IMG/VR virus record: IMGVR_UViG_3300009149_000028
Location: 1-64,000 of that record
DNA: 64,000 nucleotides
Strand: one strand, 5' to 3'
Source of the DNA: a virus
The position numbers and the translations under genes were made by a program. The notes under the pieces are model-generated. The model had not been told where the DNA came from and made no database searches. It saw nothing but the letters and a program-made list of their open reading frames with translations. Positions within the stretch are counted from its first letter, which is position 1, and each line of letters opens with the position of its first letter. Shown piece after piece: positions 1 to 58,830 of this stretch.

Positions 1-3000
1 CCTCCAGCAATATCCCCGTCAAATCCGCCTCCGAATCCTCCAGCTCCACCGTCACCAAGACCTTCCTCGCCTCCTTCTCCAGGAGTCTGTATAGCCGCAT
101 GAGGGTTTTCATACTTTTTATCAAGATCTTTAAATAACCCGATTTTCTTATATGATTCCGCTGCAGATTCAATTTCCATGAATAGTTTCTTCTCAACTTT
201 CTTCTGCTTCAAGATAAGTTTGATCTCTTCTTTAGAGAATCCCATAACATTCTCCATAGCCCATGTATATGAAGCTGGAGACATTCCTTCTGGAGTAAAC
301 ATTTGAGAGAAAACTTCTAACTTAGATTTCCACGTCTCCATGTTCAACAATACTTGTTGAGTAGAAGGGTTAGTAAGTTGCAAATCGAAATTATCTATAT
401 CATCTTCAAACCCTAAGAATAATAAGTGAATATTAGCTATTCTTCTTAATTCCATCAACACACACTCCTGTATCATGTTAATAGTTCTTGCGAACCTTAA
501 ATCAGATTGAGACAATAAACTTCCACCTGGAATAGATTCCGTGTAGTTCAAATAAGGTTTTGGAACCTTAATTGCAGCAAACAATTTATTTTGAAGATAT
601 TCAATATCCATGATATCACCAAGATTTGTTGCCCCTGGTAAAGTATCAATCTTTGAAGACTTATCTCCCCTAACTGGTATGAAGTAATCTTCTTCAACAC
701 TAGGGGGGTTGTATTTTCTATTTGAGTTTCCGTTTCTTGAATCTACGACTGGCTGTCTTTTAAGACGAGTTTTGATATCTTCAATATATTGTAAAACGTC
801 AGCATCATCTATGTTTCCTACATCAATGTAGAATACTCTACGTTCTGGAGCTCTAACAATACGATATACAAGCATTGCATCTTCTGCAAGCTGTAATTGT
901 TTCCAAAGTTTTCTATCTGGATCTAATACCGATCTACCATAAGGTAATCTACGAGTGTCTTCAAGTAATCTGAAATGGGCAATTTGCCAATCTTCAAATA
1001 TCATTCCTTGAGTGTCCCATCTGAATCTGGTTCTTCCTGGCTCACCTTCAACGCCTTCTTCTCTATGAATTTCTTCAGAAGGCAAGGCTAGTACATCAAA
1101 AATACCATATTCTTTATCAATGTGTAAATGTAAAAAGAAATCTCCATATTTACACAAATCTCTAATCCACAACCTCATGTTAAATTCAACATTCAATCGT
1201 TTCTTAAGAAGATCATTCAACACTTCTTTAACTCTTTTGTTAGGGGAGAAGATCTCAAGGATATTACCTCTCTCATTTCTGGTCAAGCAATTGTGAGTGA
1301 AAACACCAGTTCCATTTGAGGTTAGAATGGCGAAATTATGATGCTCGCCCACATTAACTAAATCATAAGTCTTCCTTTTACCAACAAACTCAACAGATTT
1401 AATTGAATGGTTTGTCGCAGACACAAAATTGGTCCAATTTTTATATTCAGATCTTGACAATAAGCCTTCAATTTCTTTTCTAGAAATATCATTATCTCTA
1501 CAAATTTTAGATAAATTTGGCCTTTCACCTTGTGAAGAAAGATATAAACTCTTTATATAATTTAATCTTTCTTTTTTAGAATTATATTTTTTTACAAAAT
1601 CAGTCCATTTGCCATATCCATTTTTCTCAAGATATGTATTAACCTTTTTTGGTCTCCAATTAAAATCATCACATATTTTTGACATATTATTCTCAAGAAT
1701 AATTTGTCCTAAATAATTTTCACACGCTCCCTCTATTGCTTGTATAGATATTTTGCTATTGTGAAACCCTAAATCCTCCCACCTTTGTAAATTTAAAGAT
1801 TTATATACTTTTGATTTATACAGAATTCTTCTAGTAGTTCCAAGAATCTCACAAGCCTCTTCGACTGTTGATGAATTATTATACGCTTGCAATAATTCAT
1901 GAATAGAAAATTCTCTTTTTTTATCATGAAGATATCTTCCATTTTTTTCTCCAGACAATCTATACCCTTTACCATACATAGGGTTTTCTTTTCCTGAATA
2001 ACCAAATAAATCTTTTAATTCTTCTTGAGAATAATTTGAGTATTTTCTTTTTTGTCTGTCAGAAATTTCTTGGACTCTTTTAGATCTCCATTCTGGATCG
2101 CTCCAATATGGACCTGAAGAAGAATTTGTTTCAGAAAACACTTTTTTCATCTTATCTGAATAACTCTTGTCATTTTTCCACCTGTCAGAATTAAGAGAGC
2201 TATGAAGCTTTTGGTGATCAAACCAATCCATGACCTGAAGATTGGATGGATCATTATTTAGTTTATTAAAATCCTTATGGTGAACAACTCCTTTTTTCTC
2301 TCCCCAAAGACTACGTTTAACAATTCTATGCGTATATTCCCATTTACCATCTTCAAAAACCATCTCATAACCACTTATTCTATCACCATCTCCAGATGCT
2401 CTAGTATAAAACGGTTGTATTGATTGGCTCTCTTTGAGATCTGATGTTTTTATATATTTGTCTTCACCATTAGAAAGCCATAAATGTTCTGAAGTAGCCA
2501 TTACGTGAGAATCATCATCAAACGTCACTTTATACACATCTTGTTCGCCTTTATATATGACTCTTTGACATATAGCTGGCTCACTTCTCTGTAATTCAGG
2601 ATTATATGAATAAACATGGAAATTTTCCATATTTTCATCATATAGCTCTTCTATTGTTTTTCTTTCCCCACTTAAAAGCGGGATTACAGTATTTGCATCC
2701 AAGCATTCATCCCTCATGATGTCAAGCGCTGCCGCTATCTCAGGGGATTGGTCCATAGCCCTAAAGTCTTGATAGGATGTTATTCTATCCGCATCAAAAT
2801 ACATAGTTCTCGTATACAAGTCTCTAGCTATTGAGTCTACTTGCCAATCAAGGAACTGTTGTTGTTGCTGCTCTCTAGGGTCTTGATATCTATAAAATCT
2901 ATCGTCACCTTTCTTCCCAGAGCCATTATCCTGACTTGGAGTGTGCCCTACTGGGGCTTGTGTGTATTCCTTTTCTCCAGGATCTCTAGGATCTGGCTTG

Positions 3001-3053
3001 AATCGTTGTGCAACTCTTTGAAATATTGTTTTTTGTGCGTTATTATCTGCCAT
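1..3053 (-). CDS. 20: Portal vertex protein, T4 gp20 family, interrupted by an intein (3' end outside window)
   Basis: The frame is open from the ATG at 3053 to the window edge. It encodes a T4-like portal, the dodecameric ring at the head vertex through which DNA is packaged. Residues 1-116 (N-extein) end in ALDIMRDE. A 472-codon intein follows (1290..2705), and the portal resumes as CLTRNERGNILEIF. Joining the exteins gives a continuous, sensible portal sequence. The downstream part carries the family segment RRVFYIDVGNIDDADVLQYI and the tract KVPKPYLNYTESIPGGSLL. The last visible residues are a Gly-rich, acidic tail. The terminase gene lies just upstream, as is usual for T4-like packaging genes. 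Family assignment rests on recognised motifs; the C-terminus is not in view. Confidence 0.93.
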   Translation of the reverse strand, partial: MADNNAQKTIFQRVAQRFKPDPRDPGEKEYTQAPVGHTPSQDNGSGKKGDDRFYRYQDPREQQQQQFLDWQVDSIARDLYTRTMYFDADRITSYQDFRAMDQSPEIAAALDIMRDECLDANTVIPLLSGERKTIEELYDENMENFHVYSYNPELQRSEPAICQRVIYKGEQDVYKVTFDDDSHVMATSEHLWLSNGEDKYIKTSDLKESQSIQPFYTRASGDGDRISGYEMVFEDGKWEYTHRIVKRSLWGEKKGVVHHKDFNKLNNDPSNLQVMDWFDHQKLHSSLNSDRWKNDKSYSDKMKKVFSETNSSSGPYWSDPEWRSKRVQEISDRQKRKYSNYSQEELKDLFGYSGKENPMYGKGYRLSGEKNGRYLHDKKREFSIHELLQAYNNSSTVEEACEILGTTRRILYKSKVYKSLNLQRWEDLGFHNSKISIQAIEGACENYLGQIILENNMSKICDDFNWRPKKVNTYLEKNGYGKWTDFVKKYNSKKERLNYIKSLYLSSQGERPNLSKICRDNDISRKEIEGLLSRSEYKNWTNFVSATNHSIKSVEFVGKRKTYDLVNVGEHHNFAILTSNGTGVFTHNCLTRNERGNILEIFSPNKRVKEVLNDLLKKRLNVEFNMRLWIRDLCKYGDFFLHLHIDKEYGIFDVLALPSEEIHREEGVEGEPGRTRFRWDTQGMIFEDWQIAHFRLLEDTRRLPYGRSVLDPDRKLWKQLQLAEDAMLVYRIVRAPERRVFYIDVGNIDDADVLQYIEDIKTRLKRQPVVDSRNGNSNRKYNPPSVEEDYFIPVRGDKSSKIDTLPGATNLGDIMDIEYLQNKLFAAIKVPKPYLNYTESIPGGSLLSQSDLRFARTINMIQECVLMELRRIANIHLLFLGFEDDIDNFDLQLTNPSTQQVLLNMETWKSKLEVFSQMFTPEGMSPASYTWAMENVMGFSKEEIKLILKQKKVEKKLFMEIESAAESYKKIGLFKDLDKKYENPHAAIQTPGEGGEEGLGDGGAGGFGGGFDGDIAG
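1290..2705 (-). mobile_element. Intein with HNH homing-endonuclease domain inside the portal gene
   Basis: This is a 472-residue in-frame insertion with the full set of protein-splicing signals. Cys1 starts block A (CLDANTVIPLLSGE). A TSEH block-B motif follows in VYKVTFDDDSHVMATSEH. Block F is YDLVNVGEHHNFAIL. Block G is GVFTHN, followed by Cys+1 of the extein. The centre contains an HNH-type core (VVHHKDFNKLNNDPSNLQVM, around 2240-2300), a NUMOD3-like segment (NPMYGKGYRLSGEKNGRY) and helix-turn-helix-like segments further on. These are DNA-binding modules common in homing endonucleases. All residues needed for splicing are present, so it is probably active. No stop codon was found in the parts of the frame that were checked codon by codon. 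Confidence 0.93.
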
Positions 3054-3089: not shown

Positions 3090-4841
3090 TTAATCTAGTA
3101 ACCAACTTAGATCATTGTCCTCTTCAGCCGCCTGCGTGGCAGCGTCCTTAGATAAATAGATGGGTTTCATATTTGACTTATGCTTCTCATCAAATTCTTT
3201 TGTTTTCTTTTTAGTGTGTTGTCTATCTGCCTCAGAAGAACCTTTACCATCATAAGGGTTCTGGCTATAGCTTATAGCTCCAAGCATTGCTTTATACAAG
3301 TTTCTCCCCTCTACAGCTTTCTCCCAAACATATTCTTTAATATAACAAACAATAGCGAATGCTATCAAAAGGTCATCATGACTTCCTGATTCATGCTCAA
3401 TTTTACCATTGGGCTTTTGAACAAATGTCTCCATTTCTATAACCACTCTAGGCGAATTAAGCGTAACTACTTTTTCTGATAAATATTTCTTAAGAGCGCT
3501 AATTAATAAAGGTCTTGTTTTTGGCGTGGTCTGAAACCCTGGCACCACTTCATTTTCAACCACTTTAAATCTAGAATCTCTAGGCCCAGTCCAAGTCTCT
3601 CTATAAGCTGAAGCTTTATGGACTCTTTTGTATCCTAAATTCTTATGCAACTCATAACAAGTTGCTGATCCCATATTATTAAACTCAATAGCAACGTAAG
3701 CTTCATTGTAAACCATTCCTACAGCATATATTACATGAGCTAATTCGTGAGCGTCTAATTTCTTATGATACTCAGCCACTTGAATCATATCTATAGCTTC
3801 AAATACTTGTATAGTAGAGTAATCCTTTCCATCTCCACGCGCAACATCTGATGCAATTATGTACTCGCAACCTTCAACTGGCTTATGATATACCCAGAAT
3901 GAATTTTTATCCTTAACAAAAGGATCCTCACCTTCTTTATGCTTCTTCTCATCAAAATAACAAATAGGTTTAGTTCCATTAGTTTGTTGAGCATAATATT
4001 TCCTAACCCTATCTGGGATAACGGTGGCCTTCGAACCTTCAAAAGATAAATCAAGCTCTTGAGCAATTTTTACCTCATCTCTATGTAATTGATTACATAT
4101 CTCTTCATACCAAGGGCTCCAATACCTAGTGGTTCCATCGTCTTGAGCTCTAAGCTCAAGACCCTGAGCACAGTAAGGATTGTCTTTCCAGTGTACAACG
4201 CTTCTACAGAACTTATTCTGTCCCTTGATAGAAGATTGCCAAGTTTTATAGTAATAGCCTGAGGTACCGTTAGGTGTCGAAATAATGATAGTCTTACCAC
4301 CAGTTCTGGATACAGCAAGACCAGCTCCCATATTGATTTGATCCGCATGTTCAATAAAAGCTGCTTCATCCAAAATCAACATTGTCAAAGAATCCCCACG
4401 ACCAGCGTCTGGAGAAGATGCCACAGCCTTAATGCTTGATCCATTAGAAAATGTAAGTTCGTTTTGATTATCCTTAAGCCTAGCTTCAGGCATTAAGAAT
4501 GGAGGCGTGTTATTAATATATTGTTTAACTGTTTCTAGGAATCTTTTCGCTCCTTTAAAATCATTGGCAATAATTAGTATTCTTTGATCGTGTTTAAATA
4601 AAGCCGCCCATGCAACATATCCAGCGGTAGCAACCGATAAACCTGTTTGCCTACTTTTTAGTATAATGTTATTTTGATACTTGTTAAACTTGTAGATTAC
4701 TCTCTTTTGGTATTCATATGGGGAAAACTTTGAAAGCTCACTTGTATCCGCATCGAAAATAACTCCGTAATTCTCCAGGTAATATATCGGATCAGCCATG
4801 CATTTGGCCAACTCTAATTCTTCGTAGGTAAGTTCAGACAT
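3090..4841 (-). CDS. 17: Terminase large subunit, T4 gp17 family
   Basis: The packaging motor ATPase and nuclease, 583 aa, close to the 610 aa of T4 gp17. An adenine-binding-type N-terminus is followed by a Walker A-like loop KSRQTGLS (residues 62-69), Walker B LILDEA (155-160) and the coupling motif ISTP (187-190). The C-terminal half is an RNase H-fold nuclease: the first acidic residue is in IIASDVARGDGKDYS (Asp332) and a late acidic pair is in GSHDDLLIAFA. The gene sits between the fibre genes and the portal on the same strand, and a CTATTTATAA motif lies 13-25 bp upstream of the ATG. No inserted element is seen in this gene. Confidence 0.96.
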   Translation of the reverse strand: MSELTYEELELAKCMADPIYYLENYGVIFDADTSELSKFSPYEYQKRVIYKFNKYQNNIILKSRQTGLSVATAGYVAWAALFKHDQRILIIANDFKGAKRFLETVKQYINNTPPFLMPEARLKDNQNELTFSNGSSIKAVASSPDAGRGDSLTMLILDEAAFIEHADQINMGAGLAVSRTGGKTIIISTPNGTSGYYYKTWQSSIKGQNKFCRSVVHWKDNPYCAQGLELRAQDDGTTRYWSPWYEEICNQLHRDEVKIAQELDLSFEGSKATVIPDRVRKYYAQQTNGTKPICYFDEKKHKEGEDPFVKDKNSFWVYHKPVEGCEYIIASDVARGDGKDYSTIQVFEAIDMIQVAEYHKKLDAHELAHVIYAVGMVYNEAYVAIEFNNMGSATCYELHKNLGYKRVHKASAYRETWTGPRDSRFKVVENEVVPGFQTTPKTRPLLISALKKYLSEKVVTLNSPRVVIEMETFVQKPNGKIEHESGSHDDLLIAFAIVCYIKEYVWEKAVEGRNLYKAMLGAISYSQNPYDGKGSSEADRQHTKKKTKEFDEKHKSNMKPIYLSKDAATQAAEEDNDLSWLLD

Positions 4842-58185: not shown

Positions 58186-58830
58186 ATGAAAAAGCCAACT
58201 ATAAACATATATTCAATAACAAGCTCTAATCAAAATTCATGTATATACATAGGAGTAACTTCTAGGAGTTTAAAAATTAGACTTTCTGAACATATTAGAA
58301 ATAATACTGGAACATGTTTCAAACAATGGTTGGAGCAAGAAATTAGCCAAGGTCATGAAATTTTTATTAACACACTAGATGTTGTATATAAAAAAGAGTC
58401 TAAATTTTGGGAAGGGTTTTGGATATGTAACTTTAAATCCTGGGGGTTTACAACCCTAAATTCAAATATTGGAGGAGGTGGCCCTCTTTATATGACTACA
58501 CAACAAAAAGAGAAAATGAGTCTTTGTAAGAAGGGTGTGAAAAACCCTTTTTATAATAAGAAGCACACAAAAATTTCTAAAGAAAAAATAAGCTGTAACA
58601 ACTCCAGGTATTGGAAAGGTAGAAAATTAAGACCAGAAATGGTTAGAAAACTTTCTGAATCCAACTCTATACCAGTGGATCAATTTGATAAATTAGGGAA
58701 CTTTATAAAGCATTGGAGCTCTATAACAGAGGCTTCAAACATATTGGGTATAGACTCAAGTTCAATCGTTAAAGTGTTAAAAAACAAAAGAAAAAAAGCA
58801 GGAAACTATGGATGGAAATATAAAAAATAG
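58186..58830 (+). CDS. GIY-YIG homing endonuclease, free-standing
   Basis: 214 aa. The GIY-YIG half has INIYSI ... CIYIGVTSRSLKIRLSEH (Tyr8, YIG at 21-23, Arg and His to follow) and a later Glu in FWEGFW. A NUMOD3-like motif KNPFYNKKHTKISKEK and a C-terminal helix-turn-helix-like NUMOD1/IENR1 segment (VDQFDKLGNFIKHWSSITEA) provide DNA binding. The 3' end overlaps the following glycosyltransferase start by 23 bases. It is likely a mobile gene at the edge of the glycan cluster. Confidence 0.93.
   Translation: MKKPTINIYSITSSNQNSCIYIGVTSRSLKIRLSEHIRNNTGTCFKQWLEQEISQGHEIFINTLDVVYKKESKFWEGFWICNFKSWGFTTLNSNIGGGGPLYMTTQQKEKMSLCKKGVKNPFYNKKHTKISKEKISCNNSRYWKGRKLRPEMVRKLSESNSIPVDQFDKLGNFIKHWSSITEASNILGIDSSSIVKVLKNKRKKAGNYGWKYKK

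Follow-up and report, generated by a model that had tools for sequence, protein, structure and literature searches.

The window is a stretch of 64,000 nucleotides from a 66,017-bp IMG/VR virus record. At its left edge lies a T4-like portal (gp20) gene that carries a probable intein with its own endonuclease domain, and the gene for the large terminase subunit (TerL) adjoins it, 36 nt upstream of the portal open reading frame (ORF), the arrangement looked for around a T4-like portal. The features are listed below by position and strand; L numbers are our own labels.

3..3053, minus strand: T4-like portal precursor ORF, 1017 aa, running off the left window edge (PF07230, E 2.2e-65)
2706..3053, minus strand: N-extein, portal residues 1-116, ending ...ALDIMRDE; in L009-L011 the empty site comes right after the corresponding residues
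1290..2705, minus strand: predicted intein, 472 aa, C117-N588 of the precursor (intein profiles, contig comparison, alignment, fold search)
2703..2705, minus strand: Cys1, N-terminal splicing nucleophile, invariant in 12/12
2484..2495, minus strand: block B TxxH, here TSEH, intein residues 71-74; T71 and H74 invariant in 12/12
2229..2336, minus strand: HNH_3 endonuclease domain, intein residues 124-159, including VVHHKDFNKLNNDPSNL (Pfam, PHROG HNH families, 1u3e profile match)
1455..1865, minus strand: all-helical region with short helix-turn-helix-like units, intein residues about 281-417 (AF2 model)
1290..1406, minus strand: C-terminal splicing region, blocks F and G, TYDLVNVGEHHNF ... GVFTHN (alignment, family profile, AF2 model)
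1290-1295, minus strand: His471-Asn472, C-terminal end of the intein
1287..1289, minus strand: Cys+1, first C-extein residue and second nucleophile (direct reading and relatives)
3..1289, minus strand: C-extein of the portal, incomplete at the window edge (Pfam portal match; match to gp20, 3ja7/6uzc)
3090..4841, minus strand: TerL, intein-free here, with inteins in the TerL of relatives

The precursor matches the Pfam family Portal_T4 (PF07230) with 221.5 bits against a curated cut-off of 22.9; the predicted structure of the portal is poor (pLDDT 62). Its full length, 1213 aa, is seen in a 388,594-bp IMG/VR contig (L006/L242) that differs from the window at 2 nt in 7,053. Since the portal ORF is complete there, an assembly frameshift, which the preliminary description had named as a possible refutation, is unlikely; the reading frame is open throughout the insert in both contigs. 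In the portal stretch RSVLDP(D)RK, the residue in parentheses is Asp in the window but Ala in the 388-kb contig and, at the aligned position, in relatives.

The insert borders proposed in the preliminary description were exact to the base, and the splicing residues it listed (Cys1, TxxH, THN and Cys+1) are all evident in the translation and kept by relatives. C1, T71, H74, H471 and N472 are invariant in an alignment of 12 inteins located at site 116 or one codon over. The Pfam Intein_splicing family (PF14890) spans the insert end to end, scoring 43.8 bits in the precursor and 47.1 with the insert alone (cut-off 35.8), and the NCBIfam model intein_Nterm (TIGR01445) marks the N terminus of the intein with 32.2 bits versus a cut-off of 24.5. 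The profile search that the preliminary description called for puts Portal_T4, Intein_splicing and HNH_3 all above their curated cut-offs. An AF2 model of the intein (mean pLDDT 84.6) puts the splicing strands at its two ends and helices between them, with a pTM of 0.53 that leaves the relative placement of domains uncertain. Foldseek matched this model to inteins, first PI-PfuI and Ssp DnaB, at target-normalised TM of about 0.5-0.6. The Ssp DnaB mini-intein (1mi8, 6frh) is also the best match in a profile search with the intein, and further HINT structures were matched as well; Ssp DnaB is similar in its HINT fold and splicing region but resides in a helicase gene, and its solved form lacks an endonuclease. 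The insert beginning at Cys1, block B, His-Asn, the +1 Cys and the predicted HINT fold, with the empty sites described next, are features looked for in a class 1 intein, for which splicing is predicted.

Portals without the insert are common among relatives. Those of L009, L010 and L011, 63-71% identical, are uninterrupted at the intein codon, and the portals of Mel-JY01, immuto and RM378 are also continuous through the insertion site. The nearest insert-free portals read MRDE/CITRGEKG or IRDE/CLTRSERG at this codon (the slash marks the insertion point) and align directly over RDE/C; the clean join of the exteins noted in the preliminary description holds. Cys is native at the +1 position in 39 of 47 insert-free clade portals among the matches listed. 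The search for intein-less alleles at the same site, proposed earlier, also turned up L262: its spliced portal DNA is 94.2% identical over 1494 nt to that of L272, which has a site-116 intein. Two further occupied/empty pairs were found at site 336 (L275/L282, 95.4%, and L296/L285, 92.9% nucleotide identity), and 60 of 80 clade contigs among the matches listed are free of any insertion in the aligned portal.

These alleles bear on the possibility, raised in the preliminary description, that the 472 residues are a normal portal domain in this lineage. Although the continuous frame across the insert speaks for it, portals of 63-71% identity have no insert at precisely that codon, such an insert separates L272 from L262 at high DNA identity, and the insert matches an intein family over its whole length. 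The empty-site alleles refute this reading, and we give it next to no chance. A broken, non-splicing intein or an assembly artefact is very improbable as well. The window record is only a 66-kb fragment, which leaves room for an artefact; however, the same ORF recurs in the 388-kb contig, the splicing residues are all present and conserved, and the portal is essential in tailed phages. Our reading, which we put at a probability of about 0.93 given the anatomy, predicted fold, empty sites and distribution, is that Glu116 and the native Cys of a T4-like portal are separated by an intein bearing a homing endonuclease.

We then considered the endonuclease. HNH_3 (PF13392) scores 28.8 bits in the precursor and 30.0 in the insert alone, above the cut-off of 24.8; the window copy has the best HNH_3 E-value of the site-116 group, and its HHKDFNKLNNDPSNL core, HHKDFNKLNN, is intact. 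The domain also has a weak profile match (E 0.005) to I-HmuI (1u3e), whose HNH core is similar; I-HmuI is intron-encoded, whereas the HNH domain of the window lies inside an intein. The all-helical region is presumed to be the DNA-binding part of the endonuclease; some relatives show weak helix-turn-helix matches. The central region had been described as HNH/NUMOD3-like. The HNH part stands, but Pfam gave no match to NUMOD3 in the portal/intein protein at E<=1, and the NUMOD3-like stretch GKENPMYGKGYRLSGEKNGRY is visible by eye in the alignment only. NUMOD3 is a DNA-binding motif that is common in HNH homing endonucleases and not required.

Splicing steps through Cys1, Asn and Cys+1 are established intein chemistry. 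After translation, the HINT domain would transfer the N-extein first onto Cys1 and next onto Cys+1, Asn472 would cyclise, and the portal parts would be joined as ...RDE-CLTRNE.... The HNH domain would cut intein-less portal genes of a co-infecting phage, and repair would then copy the intein into the cut gene. We infer splicing and DNA cutting by the window copy from intein chemistry and distribution; the earlier statements that the portal must splice and that the element is mobile would follow likewise from sequence and distribution.

Alternatively, the intein may splice while its HNH domain is dead, the element being inherited vertically and kept since clean loss is rare. Two mini-inteins at site 116 (L101 and L112), of about 160 aa and without an endonuclease, show that the domain is occasionally lost, as expected of the homing cycle. 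Moreover, intein and extein identities mostly move in parallel among carriers (64% for the intein and 72% for the extein between the window and L272), a pattern compatible with extensive vertical descent and with homing alike. The above-threshold HNH_3 score of the window copy, the best in its group by E-value, and the intact core argue against a dead domain, which we consider unlikely, though it deserves some weight. HNH_3 was detected in 8 of the 12 aligned members, and the HNH motif is retained in most of the long ones. The inteins are distributed sporadically at the fixed site 116 over divergent hosts, the pattern looked for in HNH homing. The window insert is a real and probably active homing intein.

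Co-conversion of flanks is expected after recent homing; flank divergence around the site gave no clear co-conversion signal. Inteins are commonly held to insert at conserved host residues. That rule is not supported here: at six portal sites, conservation did not exceed that of randomly drawn core positions (p 0.16). Conservation at site 116 lies at the 50th percentile, although Glu occupies the -1 position in 183 of 188.

Next to the single intein, we find its setting more interesting: the portal and TerL genes of this jumbo-phage clade are infested at multiple sites. Prevalence was taken from a scan whose query was a portal stretch lying downstream of every insertion site, giving at least 80 contigs and at least 63 lineages at 97% identity. 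Among the matches listed, 16 of 63 lineages have a portal intein, at about five sites (336 in 11 lineages, 116 in six, 235 in three and 260 in one), 14 of 63 have a TerL intein, mostly at KSRQ/TGLS in Walker A, and six have both. Three portal inserts each occur in L247 and L251; the second insert in L251 is a further one without a placed boundary, and some TerL inserts in L271 and L280 likewise have no placed junctions. In more distant T4-like portals, scanned with another uninterrupted portal segment, there was one insertion in 78 spanning loci. A scan with the inteins as queries, which is biased toward portal inteins and so was not used for prevalence, found many more in T4-like portals at about ten positions. 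Repeated uptake of inteins, at distinct positions in portal and TerL, is the wider pattern in this clade to which the window intein belongs. The TerL inteins at the Walker A codon KSRQ/TGLS (L246, L252, L271, L275, L280, L287, L290, L308, L310, L315 and L319) carry LAGLIDADG in the one tested, and that of L308 is a mini-intein of 141 aa. Inteins at portal site 336 (L243, L246, L254, L269, L296, L315 and others) have a penultimate residue other than His, with FTQN, FTKN or FTNN before Ser+1.

In a tree of intein N termini, which has few columns and leaves some forks open, the 12 site-116 inteins and two at site 117 form one clade (support 100/98), with a separate group for each of TerL-65, TerL-330 and portal-235. 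LAGLIDADG domains are present in the inteins tested at sites 235 and 260, and a weak HNH match in one at site 336. Given the grouping by site and the endonuclease class at each site, the portal and TerL inteins seem to be largely site-specific families rather than one freely hopping intein. The T4-like portal, an essential virion gene, has been invaded at several codons by intein families with two endonuclease classes, HNH at 116 and LAGLIDADG at 235 and 260. Among related portals, empty alleles occur beside full inteins and mini-inteins, with empty and occupied ones in pairs down to 94% identical, which allows their gain, decay and loss to be traced. One could go further and propose that the portal and TerL genes of the clade serve as a lasting intein reservoir with multiple sites, with portal-intein splicing a checkpoint on portal ring assembly and not merely tolerated, but we regard this as a long shot.

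The kind of intein is known, but the T4-like portal has been little described as its host gene and place of insertion. The preliminary description found a portal host unfamiliar. This is fair for T4-like portals, but portal (PORT) inteins are already published: six were reported in mycobacteriophage cluster C1 (Kelley et al. 2016, PMC5050341), likewise inside the phage portal gene. Intein endonucleases are generally LAGLIDADG according to that paper, while the window intein has HNH. A full-text search of open-access papers turned up no intein reported from a T4-like gp20 portal. TerL inteins of T4-like and jumbo phages are known from Salmonella phage Maynard (PMC3868846) and from RaK2 and K64-1 (PMC5259590); as here, the host is a T4-like packaging gene, but it is TerL instead of the portal, and the type in RaK2 and K64-1 is LAGLIDADG. 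Gut Jug phages have inteins, and their portal genes are described as fragmented or divergent (PMC12363816). Annotation that overlooks such inteins can leave portals unnamed or truncated.

Searches of plasmids and phage isolates gave only distant relatives of the window intein. Two unannotated genomes of uncultured huge phages, LR756508.1 (484 kb) and LR756511.1 (595 kb), similarly have T4-like portals with inteins. The one in LR756511.1 is one codon from the window site, 232 aa long and without a clear HNH core. LR756508.1 has three portal inteins, at sites other than that of the window, one of them with an HNH-like motif; at 146048-148321 (L001), mini-inteins of 150 and 141 aa are among the three, and the +1 residues are S, T and S.

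Two further features were noted. Outside the window, in the 388-kb contig (L242:8795-14414), the DNA polymerase III alpha gene is split, in the order N-part with N-intein, two ORFs (one of 353 aa, DUF7487), C-intein ending ILVHN/SPPDIDIDF and C-part; the arrangement resembles a split intein whose halves flank an endonuclease-like gene. Within the window, positions 58186-58830 on the plus strand encode a free-standing GIY-YIG endonuclease with NUMOD3 and NUMOD1, as identified by Pfam.
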